From IMG/VR virus record IMGVR_UViG_3300046501_000161, positions 1 to 24,019 of that record: a stretch of DNA of 24,019 nt, one strand, 5' to 3'. Made by a program: the position numbers and the translations under genes. Origin of the DNA: a virus. The notes beneath the pieces are model-generated. The model searched no databases and was not told the origin of the DNA. It saw nothing but the letters and a program-made list of their open reading frames with translations. This document shows, piece by piece, positions 2,489 to 16,825 of this stretch (positions within the stretch are counted from its first letter, which is position 1; each line of letters starts with the position of its first letter).

Positions 2489-2529
2489 GGCGCATTACTC
2501 TCCACTTCATTTCGGCGTGCGCCGCTGGC

Positions 2530-3369
2530 TCAGAACGGGACAGATTCGAAGTCCACCATGTAGTGGATCTCGCTCAACGCCGTGAGGTACTGCTTGTGCG
2601 AAAGGCCCAGGAGCAGATAGAGAACATCAACCAGTGCCATAAGCTGCCCTGCGTTTTTGGCGGCCCGAGGGCTCAGTTGTTCGCCATGCTCTGTAAGCAA
2701 CGAATCGGAATGACTCGGAGCAATCCTGTTGAAAACGCTGATCAGCTCATCTTTGCGCAGGTCTAATGCTCGACCGAAGGCACTGGCGTGCTCGATGCTG
2801 AGTTCATTCAAAGCCGCGATATCAGAGCTATCCCCTTCGAGTGAATGCGGCACAGTGATTTCCACCAAGCGCGATTCGAAGGCTTCGCTGAACTGAACCG
2901 GTTCGTTGGATGTGATAACCAAAGCACCGTTGAAATGGTGCTGTACCGACCCTGTCGCCGCGTCATTCAGCGTGCGGAGTGTGCATTGGTTGAACAGGGG
3001 TTTCAGCTCGTCCCAATCGAAAGGCGATTTTTGCGAGAGGGGCAAATCATCCACCAACACGACTACCTGTTCGCGAGCATTTTCTATAGCGCGAATACGG
3101 CCTGCCGGGGTCGCGTGCTTCGGAGAAAAGCAGTGGTACGAGTCTTGGCCGATCAGTTTCGACAAGTAACTCAGTAAAAATGTAGGGCCACCGCTCAACG
3201 TGCCAACGAGGTGCAAGAAGGGAAAGCTCCACTGCTCATCGCGAATTTTTTCCGCATGTTGAGCTCCTAGCCACCAAGCCATGGCGACAACACCTCGCGA
3301 ACCGTAAACACGGTAGAAGTTATCGAAACAGATGGCCGATTGCAGTTCGATTTGATTGATGTTGCTCAT
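2530..3369 (-). CDS. Primase-helicase ATPase-domain paralogue with a lost Walker A
   Basis: This 279-residue protein aligns with the C-terminal ATPase domain of the primase-helicase in the same operon. Residues 22-66 align without gaps to residues 519-563 of the primase, with 20 identities in 45 (YGxRG, SFPF and VG among them). The later blocks also align: VVLVDD at 103-108 with VVMLES at 600-605, FDWDELK with FNWDSFK, ALVITSNEPVQ with ALVISQNAPVQ, and QLMALVDVL with QLMVLLDAL. The P-loop is broken: GEPGAGKST in the primase reads GTLSGGPTF here, with proline in place of the lysine. Walker B acids and the sensor-type asparagine remain. It probably cannot bind or hydrolyse ATP and may act as a regulatory partner of the helicase ring. 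The start overlaps the upstream HTH gene (ATGA). Confidence 0.85.
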   Translation of the reverse strand: MSNINQIELQSAICFDNFYRVYGSRGVVAMAWWLGAQHAEKIRDEQWSFPFLHLVGTLSGGPTFLLSYLSKLIGQDSYHCFSPKHATPAGRIRAIENAREQVVVLVDDLPLSQKSPFDWDELKPLFNQCTLRTLNDAATGSVQHHFNGALVITSNEPVQFSEAFESRLVEITVPHSLEGDSSDIAALNELSIEHASAFGRALDLRKDELISVFNRIAPSHSDSLLTEHGEQLSPRAAKNAGQLMALVDVLYLLLGLSHKQYLTALSEIHYMVDFESVPF

Positions 3370-3668
3370 TGTTGGGTCTCCGAATCCGACTTTATGACCA
3401 CTGCTTTCAGGTTCTCGTAGAGGTCTGGCAGCTCTTGTTTCAGGTGCGCAGCGATCAGCAGATCAACGCGGTTTATGCTCGCCAGTTCGATGTGTTCCAG
3501 ATGCACCAACCGGAACAGCTCGGCGGTCGGCGCGGGCATCGGACGGCCACTTTCGTAGCGGCTGGCAGCCGTCTGGTTTACGAAGATTTGCCGCCAGAAC
3601 TCGGACTGATTGAGGCCGGTTGCTGCGCGGATCTCGCGCGGGTTTGGGTGAGATGTTGGTCGGGCCAT
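3366..3668 (-). CDS. HTH (XRE-like) DNA-binding protein
   Basis: A 100-residue protein whose first 55 residues fit a Cro/CI-type helix-turn-helix: IRAATGLNQSEFWRQIFVNQTAASRYESGRPMPAPTAEL contains the recognition helix around QTAASRYESG. The remainder is helical and may mediate dimers. It sits in the middle of the early operon, 2 bases after the preceding gene, and overlaps the paralogue gene by ATGA. It could be the Cro/Cox-like factor that acts against the repressor unit or a modulator of replication; the sequence does not decide. (Quoted stretch is split by function: helix 1 LNQSEFW, helix 2 QTAASRYE.). Confidence 0.8.
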   Translation of the reverse strand: MARPTSHPNPREIRAATGLNQSEFWRQIFVNQTAASRYESGRPMPAPTAELFRLVHLEHIELASINRVDLLIAAHLKQELPDLYENLKAVVIKSDSETQQ

Positions 3669-3670
3669 GA

Positions 3671-4015
3671 TCAGAAGCCCTCGAACTTGAGGCGGATGGT
3701 TCGGGTGTTTTCTTCGTCAGTCGGTGGAAGGATTCGGCAACCGTCGCCGGTGACCAGAATTTTGCGACCGAGCTTGGCGCTTTCGTCGAAGACCACGTCC
3801 ATAGCGACGTTGATGTGATCAGCCTGGACGCGGGCGACCAGTAGCAATCCGTTGCGCTCGGTGTAGTGCGCAATCGTCGGTACGCCTTGCTTGCTGAATT
3901 GTTCGGCGAGGTGTTCGGCTTGCTCCAGAGTCGGCAGCGCCTTTTCCAAAGCGCGCAGGACGAAGCGAAAGCGCTTGCTGTATCGCACCACCGTGCGGGT
4001 ATAGAGGTTCGTCAT
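3671..4015 (-). CDS. Unknown small early protein
   Basis: I do not recognise this protein. From the ATG at 4015 it has 114 residues; an in-frame ATG at 4027 would add four. It begins with a basic stretch (RTVVRYSKRFRFVLRAL), followed by a helix and alternating beta/alpha segments (GLLLVARV, KILVTGDGCRIL), ending in RTIRLKFEGF. No membrane segment. It lies between the primase-helicase and an HTH gene with very short gaps and is clearly part of the early operon; a replication accessory role is possible. Confidence 0.65.
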   Translation of the reverse strand: MTNLYTRTVVRYSKRFRFVLRALEKALPTLEQAEHLAEQFSKQGVPTIAHYTERNGLLLVARVQADHINVAMDVVFDESAKLGRKILVTGDGCRILPPTDEENTRTIRLKFEGF

Positions 4016-4044
4016 GGTCAGTTCCATTTGAGGGTTGGGGTGGC

Positions 4045-6735
4045 TCACGCTTTGAAAACCCAGCACTTCACCGTGGACGGCAGCGTCTGACTGAACGCGT
4101 CCCTCGAAGTGTTGCGCCGGGCGTTGATCGCGCTGTTTACGGCGCGAATTTCTATGAACTGGCGGTTGCGGCTGGACTTCAGGACGCGCTTCAGGTCGGT
4201 CAGCGGCGGGATGCGCTGTTTCTTTTCTGCGGCCAGTTGCTCGAAGTGGTTGAGGTTGATGGCGATCAATCCAGCATCTCGGCTGTGATTGAGCTTTGGC
4301 TGGCCTTCAGCGTCATCACCGGCGCCGTCGAGGTACTCGAACGCCTCCCAGAAGGATTCAACCATCGGGTTTTCGCGGGAAAGGGCTTGCTCACGCTCAA
4401 GGGCCAATTCGGTGATAACCGCTTTGGCTTCTTTCATTTGCGAATCAGTGATCGGGCAAACCAACTTCAGGGCATCCAGAAGCACCATCAACTGCGCGTG
4501 GTTCTTCTGGATACGCAGGTTCTTTGCCCCGGCTGCCTGAATTTCCTTTTCGTAAGGGCGCTGACGCTCATCCATCAGCTTCAAGACTTCGGCTTCTTTG
4601 GTGACGGCCTTGACCAGAAAACCGCTGACTTCGCTGGCTGTCATGCGACCGAGCGCGAGTCCACCTTCGCGGCCTTCGTCGGACTGGCGGCTCTTGTCGA
4701 ACCAGACGTGGATGATCCGTTCCATGATGGCCGGTGATGCCTGCACCGGGGCGTTCTGGCTGATCACCAGTGCCGCGCGAAACTGTGGCTCGTAGGTGTC
4801 GTTGCCGGAGTTTTTAACGCCCGTGGTACGCAGGGCACCGCCGTTATAGAGGGACTTGAAACTGTCCCAGTTGAACGCCTGTTTTGGTCGGCCTTTGCCT
4901 TCGTCGTCGTCGCTCCGATCGGACTCCAGCATCACAACCGGCATGTTCGAGACTTGGGCCATGGTGCGCAGATAACCAACCATGGAGCCTTTCAACGGGT
5001 CAGAACCCTCGTAGCCGTTGCGGCCCAGCAGTTTCCACAGCGTTTCAAGCAGCGTGGACTTACCGGCGCCGGGCTCGCCTACAACTTCCATGAAGGGAAA
5101 CGACTCGAAGCGTTCGCGGATCTGCTCGGCAAACAGGGTGCCCATCCAGTAGGCCAGCACAATCAAACCGCGCGGGCCGTAGCAGAGATAGATCAGGTCA
5201 AACCACGACTCGCTGTAGGCTTTCAGGTCAGAGTTGATGTCGAGCTTTACCGACTTCGACAGGCTCTTGATTGCCAGTTTGCCGATGTCGAAATAATCCT
5301 CATCGTTGATCTCGACCAGCTTGTCAGCCGCGATCGCCACGTCGTTGTAGACGTAGCAACCGTGGTCGGCGCTGTACCCGATGTAATCGATCGTCTGGAC
5401 TTTCTTGATGTTGAAGGTCCAGCGCGAAAGCAGGCGGTCAAGCTGGCTGGCACTGCCGGTCCAGATAGCACCGGCACCCATGTGCAGCAGGCGCTTTTTG
5501 AATTCGGATGGCGCCGAAAGCTGGCTCGCCGTGAAGGTGCCTTTCTCCGGTTTCCCGCTGTGCGGGAAGTTGACGCGGAAGTAGTACCAAGACTCGTCGG
5601 TAATCTCGTTCTTCATGTAGTAGAGCGGCGTCGGCTTACAGTTGCAGATCTCGACTACGCAGTTGCTCTCGGCCAGGGCTTCGAGCCGCTGCTCTTCGCG
5701 GGTCATGTCCGGGTAGTCGTCTTGAACCTTCTCCAGCACCTTGCCGAACGCGTCGAGATCGAGCTTGAACCAATACAGGCGCTGCTCGAAGTCGAGGGGA
5801 AATTGGGTGGTGCCGAAGCGGGAATAGATCAGGTTCGCTTTTTCCTGCGCGCTCTCGGCGATCACCAGCGCGCCGTGATAGCGGTATTCCTCAAGATCTT
5901 TCGGCTTGAGTCTGTCGAGGCGGTGTAGATCGTCCCAATCGCGTTTGGCTGCGCCGCGAGATGGGGATAAGGCGGCAGCAACCTCCCAGCCTTCCTCTTT
6001 TGCGCGGCGGCAATATTTGCGGGTGAAAGAATGCCCAGCAGGGTCATCGTCGTAGGCGAATACCAAGCGCGGGCGTTCGCGTCCGTTCGCCTCGCACTGC
6101 GCGGCCAACGCAGCCAGAGCCTCGCTCGGATAATTGTTGGTCGTGAGGGTTGAGGTTGCAGTAATGCCGTTATGCAGCAGACCGATCGCCTTGAAGATTC
6201 CTTCAACGATCCAGACCTCTTCGACATCAATGAACGACTGGCCGGGTGCCTGCCACCAAGTGCCGCCGTAATTTCCACGGAATGTCGCCTTGCGCTTACC
6301 AAAGCGTTGTGGCCGATCGATGATCCGCTCCCAGTATCCAACGCCGGGCAGGGCGAAACGCACAGTGGCGCTACCAATGCTTTTGTCAGCGTCCCAGTAG
6401 CTTTCTTGGGTGTACCAGCCTTTGATCGTGTCGAGGTCAAAACCCCGGCCTTCCTTCATGTAAGCGTCAGCGGTCGCGTTCGGATTCTCTGGGAGCTTCG
6501 GCGCGCGATCGGACCAGCTTTCAAACAGCTCGCTGTAACGATCCTTGATGTGTTCTTCGAATCCGCATTTGTTGGTGCGATTGCAACGCAACACCCACGG
6601 GTGTTCCGCGTTGGTGTAGAGCTCCTTCTTGTGGCAGTTGGGGCATTCCCCCTGCTGCAACCAATCGCCGACACGCTTGAATGCAAACTCGCGATCAAGC
6701 TTCTCGGTTACGGCTTTGTAAAGGCGCTGGTCCAT
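4045..6735 (-). CDS. Primase-helicase: zinc finger, Toprim and P-loop ATPase domains
   Basis: An 896-residue replication protein. It starts with a primase-type zinc finger (C31, C34, C51, C57), followed by a Toprim domain (EG at 178-179 and the acidic cluster YDDDPAG at 228-234), and a P-loop ATPase domain with Walker A GEPGAGKST at 553-561, a Walker B-like VVMLESD near 600-606 and a sensor-like QN at 660-661. The family knowledge is that such fusions make primers and unwind the fork, giving theta-type replication; P2 instead uses the rolling-circle initiator gpA, which is absent here. The C-terminal 100 residues carry a basic region. A hairpin lies just upstream at 6766-6788. The ATPase domain has a degenerate copy encoded at 2530-3369. 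Confidence 0.9.
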   Translation of the reverse strand: MDQRLYKAVTEKLDREFAFKRVGDWLQQGECPNCHKKELYTNAEHPWVLRCNRTNKCGFEEHIKDRYSELFESWSDRAPKLPENPNATADAYMKEGRGFDLDTIKGWYTQESYWDADKSIGSATVRFALPGVGYWERIIDRPQRFGKRKATFRGNYGGTWWQAPGQSFIDVEEVWIVEGIFKAIGLLHNGITATSTLTTNNYPSEALAALAAQCEANGRERPRLVFAYDDDPAGHSFTRKYCRRAKEEGWEVAAALSPSRGAAKRDWDDLHRLDRLKPKDLEEYRYHGALVIAESAQEKANLIYSRFGTTQFPLDFEQRLYWFKLDLDAFGKVLEKVQDDYPDMTREEQRLEALAESNCVVEICNCKPTPLYYMKNEITDESWYYFRVNFPHSGKPEKGTFTASQLSAPSEFKKRLLHMGAGAIWTGSASQLDRLLSRWTFNIKKVQTIDYIGYSADHGCYVYNDVAIAADKLVEINDEDYFDIGKLAIKSLSKSVKLDINSDLKAYSESWFDLIYLCYGPRGLIVLAYWMGTLFAEQIRERFESFPFMEVVGEPGAGKSTLLETLWKLLGRNGYEGSDPLKGSMVGYLRTMAQVSNMPVVMLESDRSDDDEGKGRPKQAFNWDSFKSLYNGGALRTTGVKNSGNDTYEPQFRAALVISQNAPVQASPAIMERIIHVWFDKSRQSDEGREGGLALGRMTASEVSGFLVKAVTKEAEVLKLMDERQRPYEKEIQAAGAKNLRIQKNHAQLMVLLDALKLVCPITDSQMKEAKAVITELALEREQALSRENPMVESFWEAFEYLDGAGDDAEGQPKLNHSRDAGLIAINLNHFEQLAAEKKQRIPPLTDLKRVLKSSRNRQFIEIRAVNSAINARRNTSRDAFSQTLPSTVKCWVFKA

Positions 6736-9034: not shown

Positions 9035-9436
9035 GTGAAAAGAACCGGCCTTACCCTGCTGTTACTCGCATCGATCACCATTGCGCATGCTGAACCCGTG
9101 CCGACAAGCATTGCCAAGCAGCTCAAACCGCTTGATATCAAAGCCGTCGAGCTTACCGGCGATGCGTTGCGCGTGGACATGAATCGACCGCGCGTCACCG
9201 AGGACATCTACGCCACGGTGGTGAATAGCGTATGCACGAGCCTTATTCTTGAGCCGGGCTCGTGGGGCAAGACCGACTTTCGACGGATCGAGGTAGTGAA
9301 CTCATTCGGCGCGCAGGGCCGGGTGTTTGCGGGCGGTGCAGCTGAGTGCAAGGCGATCGGCAAGCTGAACATGGATGAGGTCAATCAACAGTTCTTGCCG
9401 GAACACACCAGCCTCTGGAGCGCGCCCGGCAATTAA
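9035..9436 (+). CDS. Small exported protein of unknown function
   Basis: A 133-residue protein with a clear Sec signal peptide: basic start MKRTG, hydrophobic core LTLLLLASITIA and a likely cleavage after AHA. The mature part has two cysteines (in SVCTSL and AECKAI) that could form a disulphide in the periplasm. I do not know the family, though similar short exported proteins occur in Pseudomonas. It starts with GTG, with AGGAAA about 8 bases upstream. It is the third gene of the repressor unit and therefore probably made in the lysogen: lysogenic conversion or exclusion of other phages is plausible. Its stop codon shares TTAA with the stop of the convergent gene D. Confidence 0.75.
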   Translation: MKRTGLTLLLLASITIAHAEPVPTSIAKQLKPLDIKAVELTGDALRVDMNRPRVTEDIYATVVNSVCTSLILEPGSWGKTDFRRIEVVNSFGAQGRVFAGGAAECKAIGKLNMDEVNQQFLPEHTSLWSAPGN

Positions 9437-10557
9437 TCGGTATCGATTTTTAGCTCAAGGTCGAGCTGAGTGGTAAAGCCGCTATCTGACAGCGAGTGAG
9501 ATACTTGGCTGATGATCCAGTCAGTGCCGTCAATAGTTGGCTTCCAGCCGCTGACGATCGCGGGCAGTTCTGGGAACAGGTCAGCGCGACCATGAGCCAG
9601 GGTGATGCTGAACGAGGCAACACCACGTTGCAGCTTGTCGAACGCTGACTTTGCTCCCCGGATCGCGGTGACTTCACTGGCGTAAGTGTGCCGCAGGACT
9701 TTAGTATTTTCAGCGCTCGGCTTGATGGGGTCAGTCCTTTCAACGCCGAGCTTCTCGCGTTTCCCCGACTTCCCTGACTTCACCTTCTTGATAACCGTCT
9801 TGGCGTCGACCAGCACCTCGCCTTTCTTGGCTGATCCGGTGTTTTGCCAATAGGCCTTCACGGCGGTGAAGTTGTTTCCGTCCGCAACGGTGAAGCGGTG
9901 TTGATCGCCTTTCGAGCGGACAATCGTGACGGCACCGAGCGGCAATCCACTTGCGCTTTTGGCCTCGCCCGCCTTGATGAACATCAGGCGGTCATGCTTC
10001 ACCGTGGCGATTGCATCGAACTGTTCAGCAAGTCGTGTGAGCAGATTGGCATCTGACTCGCTCGTCTGGTCGATGTGGTCTACCACTTCCTCAGCAAACT
10101 GTTTGGCGATCTCGGCGGTGAGCCGGTTTTGGCTGGCGATCGCCGAAACGATGTCCGCCACTTTCTTCCCGTGAAAGCTTCGCTCGCGCTTTGTGGTGAG
10201 CCCCGCCCGAAGATCTGCGCTTCTCGCCCTGATGATCAGTTTGTCAGGACTACCGCTGTGTTCGACTTCGTCGACGGTGTAGGTGCCCTTGTCGACCAGT
10301 CCCTCATGTTTCCATCCCAGTGCGAGGGAAAGTTTCGCCCCTCGTGGCGGCAGGTCGAGCATTCCGTCGCTGTCGTCCAAGGTGATGTCCAGCTGGTCCG
10401 CATCGAATCCACGGTTGTCCGTCAGGGTCAGGGACTCCAATCTCCCTTGCAGGGTGCTGGTGATGTCCTTGCCACCTACGATCGCGATTCGGTAGTCGGG
10501 AGTCGGGTGGATTTCTTCACGTGCGTACTGGCGATTGTCTTGAGCGGGGGCGATCAC
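9433..10557 (-). CDS. D: Tail protein gpD (late control D family)
   Basis: A 374-residue protein of the P2 gpD family, which forms the baseplate hub at the tail tip, corresponding to T4 gp27. Recognisable stretches are LTLTDNRGFDADQLDITLDDSD near the N-terminus, the hub motif GxxVADIVSAIA, and the C-terminal DWIISQVSHSLSDSGFTTQLDLEL. It starts with GTG in a GTGA overlap with the stop of U. It is the last late gene on this side and its end meets the exported-protein gene tail to tail. Confidence 0.93.
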   Translation of the reverse strand: MIAPAQDNRQYAREEIHPTPDYRIAIVGGKDITSTLQGRLESLTLTDNRGFDADQLDITLDDSDGMLDLPPRGAKLSLALGWKHEGLVDKGTYTVDEVEHSGSPDKLIIRARSADLRAGLTTKRERSFHGKKVADIVSAIASQNRLTAEIAKQFAEEVVDHIDQTSESDANLLTRLAEQFDAIATVKHDRLMFIKAGEAKSASGLPLGAVTIVRSKGDQHRFTVADGNNFTAVKAYWQNTGSAKKGEVLVDAKTVIKKVKSGKSGKREKLGVERTDPIKPSAENTKVLRHTYASEVTAIRGAKSAFDKLQRGVASFSITLAHGRADLFPELPAIVSGWKPTIDGTDWIISQVSHSLSDSGFTTQLDLELKIDTD

Positions 10558-10988
10558 GTCTGGCTTCCTTGTGGACGGTTGACCCGTTCAACTCGATCGA
10601 TCTTGTCATCATCGACACGCTTGAGGCTGAGGCTGAACTCGATTCGCCGCGGCGTACCGTCGTCGAAGAAAACGCTCTTTGTCTCGCTCAGGCTATCAAT
10701 GACAAACAGCCCGTGGATGCGTCCGTCGCTGCCGTCAATAAGCGGCCAGGACGAGCCCTGATCGCCCATTTCACGGATCAGGTCGAGGCTCGGCCGACCT
10801 CCTGTCAGCTCCGGTAGTAGTACGCCGTTCACCGTGATGCTTTCATCATCAGGGCCGAGAAACTGTCGCGCGGGACGCGCACCAACCCGGCTTGTCGTCG
10901 GGTGACGCCAGCCGAATTGATGCTGTAGCTCCTGATAAGGAAGGCTGGAAAGGCTGAATGTGAATTGCCCGAGGGCCATCATCGACAT
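10554..10988 (-). CDS. U: Tail protein gpU
   Basis: A 144-residue protein matching P2 gpU, which is involved in completing the tail. It has the family start MALGQFTFSLSSLPYQELQHQ and the pattern GRPSLDLIREMGDQGSSWPLIDGSG-like centre, then GLFVIDSLSETKSVFFDDGTPRRIEFSLSLKR in pieces. AAGGA lies 8 bases before the ATG at 10988. It stands between the tape measure gene and D as in P2. Confidence 0.93.
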   Translation of the reverse strand: MSMMALGQFTFSLSSLPYQELQHQFGWRHPTTSRVGARPARQFLGPDDESITVNGVLLPELTGGRPSLDLIREMGDQGSSWPLIDGSDGRIHGLFVIDSLSETKSVFFDDGTPRRIEFSLSLKRVDDDKIDRVERVNRPQGSQT

Positions 10989-10999
10989 AACTGAGATCC

Positions 11000-13723
11000 T
11001 TAATCCTTGTCGCCAAGACGAGACCGACCACGCGCCGCCTTTTGTCGCTCCACGTTAGCGACTTCTGCTGCGACCAGTTTGGCGAGCGTTTGCGCATCCA
11101 TGCCCGGTGATGGGTGAACGTTGATAATGATCGGACTACCACCAGATTGCGCAGGCGCTCCGGCGCCATTGGCAGGCGCAGAGAGGGGCGGCCGGCTGTC
11201 GATCGGGATTGAACGTCCGAGCGGCGATTGACTGTCGATTGGCAGCGTCCCAGCCATCGCGGTCCCTGCACCAATCGTGATTCCTGCCCCAACGGCAGTG
11301 AGCTGTTTGGCAAAGCTGGTTACCGCAGACAATGGGCCGGCTTGATTCTCAGTCAGACCTTGGTTGAGGCCCGCCATCGTGAACCCACCGAGTTCAGCGA
11401 ACACCCGGCTCGGACTGTGAATCCCGAGCTTTTCCTTGAACCAATCAATTGTCGCGCCACCTGCGCCCGTGATCGCGTCTTTGACCGCGCCAAGGCTGCC
11501 AGTGATACCGTCCACCATGCCTTGCATTATCTGCGAGCCGAGGGTCATAAATTTGGCGGGCAGCGCACCCATAAACGCCATGATCTGATCCCAGTGGGTG
11601 TAAATCTGACCGGCGAGTGTCCATGTCATGAAGAAGTTAGCCAGAGCCTGCCCGACTCCGAATACGATATTTTTTACACCCTCCCAGGCGGCTGAGGCTC
11701 CGGCCTTAATACCTGCCCATAGGGCCGAGAATTTCGGCCCGAGCGTGTCCCAGTTTGCCCAGATGTAGATCGCGGCACCGGCAATCAGTGCAACGATCGC
11801 GAGAATCGGGTTCGCCATCATTGCCATGAACAACATCCGCAGGAGTCCAATGAGCTTCATGATCCCGCCGCCCATCAAACTCAGCGCCCCTTTGAGCAGT
11901 CCAGTGCCCCCGGTGAAAACCTTCATCAGCGTTGAGACGCCACCGAGCTTGGCCCCGAGCATGGCGAACCCTGCATTTGCGATCAGCATGGGGCCAAAGA
12001 TCGTTGCCATGGCGAGCGTCAGGGCGCCCAAGACAGTCAGAACGATGGCGATCACACCAGCAACTTTCATCAGCGCGTTAGCGAGAACGGGGTTTTCCTT
12101 TGCCCATTTACCAAGCCCTTCTGAGACGTCTGTGATCCATTTGGTCAGTGCTTTTAGCTCTGGAGCGATTGCCTCACCGAAGCGGACAAGTGCATTGGTG
12201 AATGTGCCGCTTGCGGCGTCCCAAAGGTTTGCCAGCGTGCCGAGCTGAGCGTTCACCCGGTCTTGCATCGAAGCTTGGGCGTTCATCTTGCCCATCATTT
12301 CGTCGTAACCGGCCTGACCTTTGGTGATCAGCAACGACACAACCTGAGTCACCTCGGAGTCGTCACCGTAGAGATCCTTGATTAGTTGGATACGGGTTTC
12401 GGTGCTGAGCCCCTTGAGCTTGTCCAGCTCTTTGAACATCTGCGGCAAACCACCAAATTCACCTTTCCCGTCGGTGAAGTTGAGTTTCAAGTCGATGCCT
12501 TTGGTGGTTTTCAGATCCTTCAGAACGCCAGTGATGTTCGCCGAGTCCATGCTCTTCTGGAACACTTTCCGGTACGCGTTACCGGCGCTGCCGCCGTCGG
12601 TCATACCAGCTTGGTTCGCCATGGCGAGCAACGGAGCGAGCGCTTTGGCGCCTTCCAAGCCTTTCATCTTGACGGTGTCCATGCCTGCGGAAAGCTTACT
12701 GAAACCCTGCAGCATCCAATCAGGGTTTACGCCGGTGTAGTAGGTGCGCTGGATGACATCCATCAGCCCCATCATGTCCTTTTCAGTAGAGCGGGTAGCG
12801 TCCTGCAATTGAGCGGAGAACTCTGCCGCTTCCTCGAACGGCATCTTGAGCTGTACGGCGAGCATGCCTGTGGCCTCACCGAGACCACCGAGGATTGACT
12901 GTGCTGACATGCCCTGTCGAATGAGCATGGTCATCATGTTCTGGAAGTCGGCTGTTGTGCCGGGTAGCCGGTTGCCGAGGTTGTTCGCCAGTTCACTGAT
13001 CTTGTCGAACTCTGCCGATACCGCACCTCCCGAGGTCATCATCGACACTTTGAGCTGCGTGGCGGCGTCCTCAGCCTGGGCGAACTCTTTCACAGGCACG
13101 AGTAAGGCCGCGCCCGCTGCGGCGCCGGCTGCCGTCATCCCTGCGCCTGCACCGGCCATTTTGTTCCGCGTGTCCATGCCTTTGTCGTACTGAGACTTGA
13201 TGGCCTGCATTCGCTGCTGTTGCTTGCTCACCCGGGCCAGTTTTTCGGACTGCTGGGTGAGCACGCGATTGACTGACTCGACCTGCCCCTTGAGCTGTCG
13301 CTCGTGACTTGCCAGTTGATTGGTACTGATGCCAGCCGCATCCAATGAAGTCTTAGCAGCGCGAGCCGCTTCGAGGCGCTTGGTGTTCGCGAGCGATAGT
13401 TTCTCGACGGCGATCTCGGCCCGCTGTAGCTGGCGAGCCATCTTCTCCGTTGGTGGCCCGGCAGCGGCCATCGAGCTCGACAGCTCTTTGACCTTCTGCC
13501 GAGCAGCCGCGAGCTTGTCACCGGTTTCCTTCGCGTCTCGGGTGAGGGTGCGGAAAGCGTCAATCCTGCCCTGTTGGTCGTTCAGCGACTTGAGTTGGTC
13601 GCGGCTTTCCTTCACCGCTCGCGACAGCCCTTTGCTGCCCTGCATCACAGCCTTCAACGGACGGGTGGCCCGATCGACCGCGTTCAGGATGACTTCCAGT
13701 TTCAGATTACGTATGCCGCTCAT
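11000..13723 (-). CDS. T: Tail tape measure protein gpT
   Basis: A 907-residue protein. The N-terminal 200 residues are a long coiled coil rich in Lys, Gln and Glu, residues about 560-700 contain several hydrophobic stretches (for example VIAIVLTVLGALTLAMATIF), and the C-terminus has the P2-like GIHSPSRVFAELGGFT. The protein fixes tail length and is ejected with the DNA. The ATG at 13723 (MSGIRNLKLEVIL) is chosen because it overlaps the stop of E' (ATGA); the longer reading frame upstream lies in the E' gene. Its place after the E/E' pair is conserved in tailed phages. Confidence 0.93.
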   Translation of the reverse strand: MSGIRNLKLEVILNAVDRATRPLKAVMQGSKGLSRAVKESRDQLKSLNDQQGRIDAFRTLTRDAKETGDKLAAARQKVKELSSSMAAAGPPTEKMARQLQRAEIAVEKLSLANTKRLEAARAAKTSLDAAGISTNQLASHERQLKGQVESVNRVLTQQSEKLARVSKQQQRMQAIKSQYDKGMDTRNKMAGAGAGMTAAGAAAGAALLVPVKEFAQAEDAATQLKVSMMTSGGAVSAEFDKISELANNLGNRLPGTTADFQNMMTMLIRQGMSAQSILGGLGEATGMLAVQLKMPFEEAAEFSAQLQDATRSTEKDMMGLMDVIQRTYYTGVNPDWMLQGFSKLSAGMDTVKMKGLEGAKALAPLLAMANQAGMTDGGSAGNAYRKVFQKSMDSANITGVLKDLKTTKGIDLKLNFTDGKGEFGGLPQMFKELDKLKGLSTETRIQLIKDLYGDDSEVTQVVSLLITKGQAGYDEMMGKMNAQASMQDRVNAQLGTLANLWDAASGTFTNALVRFGEAIAPELKALTKWITDVSEGLGKWAKENPVLANALMKVAGVIAIVLTVLGALTLAMATIFGPMLIANAGFAMLGAKLGGVSTLMKVFTGGTGLLKGALSLMGGGIMKLIGLLRMLFMAMMANPILAIVALIAGAAIYIWANWDTLGPKFSALWAGIKAGASAAWEGVKNIVFGVGQALANFFMTWTLAGQIYTHWDQIMAFMGALPAKFMTLGSQIMQGMVDGITGSLGAVKDAITGAGGATIDWFKEKLGIHSPSRVFAELGGFTMAGLNQGLTENQAGPLSAVTSFAKQLTAVGAGITIGAGTAMAGTLPIDSQSPLGRSIPIDSRPPLSAPANGAGAPAQSGGSPIIINVHPSPGMDAQTLAKLVAAEVANVERQKAARGRSRLGDKD

Positions 13724-16027: not shown

Positions 16028-16825
16028 CTAGAAAAGCCCGCCGAAGACTTGGGGTTCCCAGTTCATGATCACGAGCTCGCGGCTGGTTTTGGCGTCTCCG
16101 CGCAGGTTATCCACTGAGTATTTGATATCGAGCCCTTCCATGTGGAAACCCGCGAACGCCTCACGGATGTCCGGGTGATCGTTGATCGAGACCATCACTT
16201 TTCCTTTGCACTCCCGCATGAACTTAGCCAGGGCGAGATAGTTCTCGAAACCGAACTCAACGCCGTAGCCTTCCGTTTCCCAGTACGGCGGGTCGCAATA
16301 AAAGAACGTGTGCGGGCGATCGTAGCGGCGCATGACTTCCTGCCACTGGAGATTTTCGACATAGGTGCCCGAAAGCCTCAGATGCGCGGCGCTCAGGTTC
16401 TCTTCGATGCGACACAGGTTGATCGACGGCCCGGTTGTTGCGGTGCCGAATGTCTGCCCGCTGACCTTCCCACCGAAGGCGTGCTGCTGGAGGTAAAAGA
16501 AACGGGCGGCGCGCTGGATGTCTGTGAGCGTTTCGACGTTGGTCATCTGTTGCCACTTGAAAATCTGGCGGCTGCTGAGTGCCCACTTGAACTGGCGAAC
16601 GAACTCTTCGAGGTGATGCTGCACCACACGGTACAGGTTCACCAGATCGCCATTGATGTCGTTCAGCACTTCAGTTTGCGCGGGCATTGGGCGCAAGAAA
16701 AACAGTGCGCCCCCTCCGGCGAAAACCTCGACGTAACACTCGTGCGGTGGAAACAGTGGGATCAGCCGATCGGCGAGACGCCGTTTTCCACCGAGCCACG
16801 GGATGATGGGAGTTGCCGCGTGCAT
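16028..16825 (-). CDS. Adenine-N6 DNA methyltransferase (Dam/D12 class)
   Basis: A 265-residue methyltransferase. The SAM-binding motif is VEVFAGGGALFF (residues 32-43), the catalytic motif is DPPY at 178-181, and the start PWLGGKRRLADRL is typical of the D12 class that includes Dam. The target sequence cannot be read from the protein; GATC is only a family guess. There is no partner endonuclease nearby, so it is a solitary phage methylase, likely protecting phage DNA or altering host expression. Its first 64 bases overlap the com gene in another frame. The ribosome binding site AAAGG sits 7-8 bases before the ATG at 16825. Confidence 0.92.
   Translation of the reverse strand: MHAATPIIPWLGGKRRLADRLIPLFPPHECYVEVFAGGGALFFLRPMPAQTEVLNDINGDLVNLYRVVQHHLEEFVRQFKWALSSRQIFKWQQMTNVETLTDIQRAARFFYLQQHAFGGKVSGQTFGTATTGPSINLCRIEENLSAAHLRLSGTYVENLQWQEVMRRYDRPHTFFYCDPPYWETEGYGVEFGFENYLALAKFMRECKGKVMVSINDHPDIREAFAGFHMEGLDIKYSVDNLRGDAKTSRELVIMNWEPQVFGGLF

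Follow-up and report, generated by a model that had tools for sequence, protein, structure and literature searches.

An exchangeable, fast-changing family of stand-alone helicase-motor paralogues beside the primase of Pseudomonas prophages

Introduction

Non-catalytic AAA+ paralogues, such as those of ORC and the clamp loaders, as a rule belong permanently to a single machine. The gene family described here is, by contrast, a paralogue of a replicative-helicase motor that occurs as an exchangeable, hypervariable accessory gene, and several known systems can be set beside it. Closest in sequence are the phage primases of PHROG 1139, Toprim_2 primase-helicases represented by those of Pseudomonas phages Dobby and phi3, with a motor that is homologous over about 250 residues and has the same layout of P-loop and arginine finger. 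Unlike these primases, the stand-alone proteins (hereafter, solos) have no zinc, Toprim or C-terminal domain and fall in a separate clade, and most of them have lost the ESDR and SQN motifs. The AAA+ fold is also common to DUF5906/D5-like and MCM-like helicases of mobile elements, including SCCmec Cch and SaPI PriRep1, but those are complete helicases, whereas a solo is a bare domain accompanying one.

DnaC-type loaders consist of a single AAA+ domain with a P-loop and an arginine finger and act with a hexameric helicase (PMC8213410). A functional likeness to solos is possible, although DnaC is a paralogue of DnaA and not of its helicase, while a solo is a paralogue of the helicase itself. With regard to gene context, P2-like phages carry accessory hotspots rich in anti-phage genes, among them old, tin and defence genes (PMC9122126), and like the slot described below these hotspots are small, have a high gene turnover and adjoin replication genes. 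In E. coli P2 the hotspot is found between gpA and gpQ, whereas our slot separates the primase operon from the integrase, and a replication-protein paralogue is its cargo. Our literature search, which had most subscription journals outside its reach, returned no description of such a system, in agreement with the initial annotation of this gene, and the family libraries searched hold no model for solos as such. Though P2-like hotspots and loader-type AAA+ proteins are known, a hypervariable helicase-motor paralogue as hotspot cargo appears to be new.

Results

The window is a stretch of 24,019 nucleotides (positions 1 to 24,019 of IMG/VR record IMGVR_UViG_3300046501_000161), a virus record with P2-like (Peduoviridae-type) gene order, and all of its genes given with coordinates here lie on the minus strand. 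The primase-helicase (4045-6735; 896 aa, model pLDDT 85) comprises a zinc ribbon, a Toprim_2 domain and an AAA+ motor at about residues 510-775. Between it and the solo gene (2530-3369) there are a 117-aa protein for which family searches gave no match (3671-4024) and a 100-aa RsaL-like HTH protein (3366-3668; Pfam HTH_92, E 2e-18). The stop codon of the RsaL-like gene overlaps the start of the solo (ATGA), so these two genes are probably translationally coupled. Beyond the solo, Pfam identified a DUF7696 protein (2240-2488), a conserved border of the slot that is also kept in the related prophages L008-L010, and a DUF4224 protein (2034-2243) located upstream of the tyrosine integrase (886-2115; PHROG 1, E 4e-33). 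A segment of 48-49 bp at 56-104 matches the Pseudomonas aeruginosa phages LPPA56 and Sirocco at 98-100% identity; the annotation of Sirocco marks it as tRNA-Ser, and it is a probable attachment-site core.

The gene at 2530-3369 encodes a stand-alone AAA+ (SF3/MCM-like) helicase domain of 279 aa. The initial annotation described it as an ATPase-dead paralogue of the phage's own primase-helicase motor, and BLASTP supports the relationship, with 77 of 265 positions identical (29%, 117 bits, E 9e-34) between solo residues 15-268 and primase residues 512-774; residues 22-66 align without gaps, with 20 of 45 identical by eye count. This similarity is far beyond chance, and a search of the viral record found only two places, the solo and the primase. 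PHROG 1139, annotated as 'DNA primase', matches the protein at profile positions 511-763 of 895 (E 7.3e-42), that is, in the AAA+/motor part only. It was the sole library match, since Pfam, NCBIfam and PADLOC gave none for this protein, and the zinc ribbon and Toprim domains of the primase were absent in the PHROG and Pfam searches. The AlphaFold2 model (pLDDT 90.6, pTM 0.90) shows an AAA+ fold followed by a helical C-terminal part; its best match among solved structures is the MCM-like helicase SCCmec Cch (5dgk) of a mobile element, and other top relatives include the MCM-like primase-helicases SaPI PriRep1 (7pds) and SaPI5 (7ola), also of mobile elements.

The motifs of the protein were read as first reported, with one addition. 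The primase P-loop GEPGAGKST aligns to a degenerate GTLSGGPTF (residues 56-64; 3178-3204), in which the Walker A lysine expected of an active SF3/AAA+ motor is replaced by proline (residue 62; 3184-3186), and the protein has probably lost ATP binding. Other elements of an active motor are present: the Walker B acids D107-D108 (3046-3051), the sensor-1/motif C asparagine N155 (2905-2907) and, unmentioned in the initial annotation, an SF3-type arginine finger, R167 (2869-2871). R167 sits 12 residues past N155, a spacing close to that typical of SF3. Neither a frameshift nor a plain sequencing error accounts for the missing lysine, since the P-loop deviates from the family consensus at several positions and GK[ST] is not encoded in either alternative reading frame. 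There is a residual likelihood of an assembly error at this site, the allele being known from a single record; exact-peptide scans found no second independent record of GTLSGGPTF, and scans of this kind using the 279-aa protein alone gave no relatives.

Relatives were recovered by another route. Six-frame searches of Pseudomonas-type genomes, so called from a resident prophage 85% identical in DNA to Pseudomonas phage Dobby and from kinship groups, revealed frames of 270-300 aa just 3' of the primase, and alignments of these frames used as queries led to many further solos. After removal of duplicates, 67 non-redundant solos from Pseudomonas-type genomes and virus contigs were available, every one of which adjoins a primase of this class. 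In 19 of the 51 cases where the gap could be measured the solo begins exactly 26 bp after the primase stop, the commonest distance. The window solo, 676 bp and two genes away from its primase, departs from this directly downstream position, which is typical rather than strictly defining.

The linkage holds in one direction, since a solo always implies a primase (67/67), but among 399 genomes of one Pseudomonas-type genus only about 17 of the 92 with any match carry a solo, always beside the primase and including one broken and one split copy (table count). Wider samples gave no solo among the matches from 391 genomes of the order or from 350 of the class, and the 50,697 sequenced phage records likewise yielded none. 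When annotated phages and plasmids were searched with the 279-aa protein, each record matched at one place, which in the records opened was a full-length primase with no stand-alone copy; phage searches with two other solos likewise gave one place per record and a nearly identical set of records. Candidates G331, G276, G321, G529 and L053 were dismissed as frameshifted, truncated or contig-edge primases. A broken solo at L120:8986-9177 has 63 aa and an intact P-loop before its stop codon and lies directly behind an intact primase. A single solo, L119, scores above the DUF5906 threshold of Pfam, and two others give only marginal short matches in PADLOC. An entire accessory gene family can thus stay unseen through its resemblance to a primase fragment.

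The initial annotation also proposed an intragenomic duplication, which our results do not bear out. A maximum-likelihood tree was built from 39 solos and 40 primase motor domains. It divides solos from primases with support of 100, and the window protein groups among the solos and not with the primase domains. Its nearest relatives are other solos, at 45-48% identity, as against 29% for its own primase. Because the solos form one clade apart from the primases, the family is old and of single origin, the window gene was not copied from the neighbouring primase in the same phage, and a recent duplication inside this phage is ruled out by tree and identities. Long-branch effects could inflate the separation of solos and primases, though the identities agree with it.

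Motif counts from an alignment of the 67 solos with 157 primase domains show what the family has kept. The Walker A lysine, the Walker B glutamate, the sensor asparagine and the finger arginine are invariant in all 157 primases. The solos retain the finger in 67/67, the lysine in 64/67, an acidic Walker B residue (E/D) in 62/67 and the sensor asparagine in 36/67. The ESDR motif of the primase keeps its D/E in 17 solos and its R in nine, and of 42 near-invariant primase columns 11 survive in at least 90% of solos, chiefly in the P-loop and the arginine finger. With these two elements kept and most motor-invariant columns lost, the family as a whole resembles a subunit that binds nucleotide and donates a finger but has been stripped of much of the coupling of a motor, and most solos, having an intact P-loop, may hydrolyse ATP. 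The lysine is missing only in the window protein and in two close group-B solos, L095 and L222, where it is replaced by arginine, probably through one separate event. Its loss in the window protein is therefore private and not a family trait; the notion that a lost lysine defines the family was rejected, and 'ATPase-dead' is not supported as a description of the family.

The solo is an accessory, hypervariable gene that is exchanged as a whole. Phages with primases 93-97% identical carry solos just 36-50% identical, and in four pairs (L130/L159, L131/L147, L140/L145 and L089/L222, where L089 equals L094) the values are 96-97% and 36-43%. Windowed DNA comparison gave mostly 80-100% identity up to the solo start codon, 57-85% over the first 180 bp of the solo, which encode the most conserved part of the protein, and little similarity thereafter; in L131/L147 and L094/L222 identity is back at 83-93% at once after the solo stop. 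The dN/dS ratio in close solo pairs is 0.05-0.6, mostly about 0.2, so purifying selection holds in these pairs and the gene is functional. Solo and primase distances are correlated (Mantel r 0.69) and coarse solo groups track primase lineages, which indicates that most exchange stays inside a lineage. An exception is the window copy: between its primase and the primases that accompany its nearest solo relatives, identity amounts to only 45-47%.

In the window the exchanged segment could be delimited to 2504-3404 by blastn against L008, L009 and L010 and inspection of their ORFs. DNA identity to prophage L008 is about 91-92% on both flanks and stops at 2503 and 3405, and the L008 slot holds about 1.4 kb of unrelated cargo. 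All three prophages have primases 95-98% identical to that of the window and no solo; their slots contain instead an Arc-like protein and proteins of 175-229 aa without a family. In L009 an Arc-like DNA-binding protein (6260-6592) occupies the slot, followed by a 201-aa protein with no family match. The slot cargo tested gave no PADLOC match.

A repeated junction element, found at L094:8538-8574, 9421-9457, 10592-10628 and 11605-11641, at L238:4716-4761, 5313-5358 and 5959-6004, and at many other loci, precedes successive unrelated accessory genes in the prophages concerned, with 4-5 copies in some loci. In many copies a GC hairpin, its loop of the CGGCAA type, stands before AAGGAG-(4-5 nt)-ACCATGCA. 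The motif has 244 matches in 2.69 Mb of partly overlapping loci versus 0 in 0.72 Mb of mononucleotide-shuffled sequence. It is absent from the window, and elsewhere may be a recombination anchor for cassette exchange.

Discussion

Three features suggest that solos act in or on a primase-helicase ring: their strict linkage to one class of helicase, the retained arginine finger, which works on the ATP site of a neighbour, and the missing motor-invariant residues. We tentatively prefer, at slightly less than an even chance, the reading that a solo is an exchangeable non-motor ring partner or inhibitor of such primase-helicases with a role in phage conflict. It would dock into, or against, the hexameric ring, give its finger to the neighbouring subunit and fill a subunit position, and because it lacks most motor-invariant residues the ring would be stalled, re-set or re-targeted. 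Solos move from prophage to prophage as cassettes of one gene, within an accessory slot of the early operon, and their products would either disturb the copying of co-resident phages and elements or escape some agent directed at the motor. That the gene is accessory and its alleles are exchanged speaks against a part essential to the replisome, and the strong allelic diversity on a near-constant primase best fits a conflict role. Several points weigh against this reading. Location in the replication operon suggests lytic-phase expression, which makes superinfection exclusion a poor fit; a solo that poisons rings must spare the primase of its own phage; the correlation of solo and primase distances would also suit a cognate partner; and most solos, with their P-loop intact, may still hydrolyse ATP.

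If solos do act on primase-helicase rings, they would represent a replication-level weapon or incompatibility factor. A bolder form of this idea, which we consider doubtful, is that solos serve as 'subunit poisons' or specificity subunits made of a helicase domain. As allelic cassettes they would enter rings and choose which replicon is copied in a multiply infected or polylysogenic Pseudomonas cell, giving incompatibility or immunity at the level of replication, and some alleles would have given up ATP binding.

The main rival, although itself unlikely, casts the solo as a loader or regulatory subunit cognate to the primase-helicase of its own phage. Such a partner, DnaC-like or MCM-like, would load or tune that ring, and its alleles would differ in step with host factors or the origin. 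Strict linkage directly 3' of the primase and the coarse co-divergence of the two proteins are what would be expected of such a partner, and the P-loop and finger are retained as in helicase loaders, where they belong to the active-site motifs of DnaC (PMC8213410). However, the majority of phages with this primase have no solo, L008-L010 among them in spite of their nearly identical primases; the divergence of 50-64% between solos goes with one of only 3-7% between the primases, and the window copy accompanies a primase remote from those of its nearest solo relatives.

The accessory slot in an early operon, the cassette exchange with its hypervariability, and a fold kept while many motor residues are lost would also suit an anti-defence decoy, a mimic of the motor that would soak up or elude a host defence protein able to sense or attack phage primase-helicases, so that solo diversity mirrors the diversity of host defences. 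This reading is improbable in our view, as we know of no defence of that kind and the slot cargo tested had no match in PADLOC.

For the window copy there is also a slim chance that it is a functionless decaying or selfish relic, whose P-loop degenerated once it had entered a phage with another primase. Its private lysine loss, displacement by two genes, missing junction element and the broken solo known elsewhere might suggest this, but its full-length frame with an ATGA-coupled start, intact finger, Walker B acids and sensor asparagine, high-confidence predicted fold and a family under purifying selection (a figure for the family and not for this allele) speak against it.

Two further genes were observed. 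In phage phi3 (L005:1-1625) the record annotation places a reverse transcriptase next to the integrase. In the window, a 265-aa protein (16028-16825) adjoins the tail sheath gene as an accessory gene of the tail module, and by eye it looks like a DNA adenine methyltransferase, with the motifs WLGGKRRL and DPPYW.
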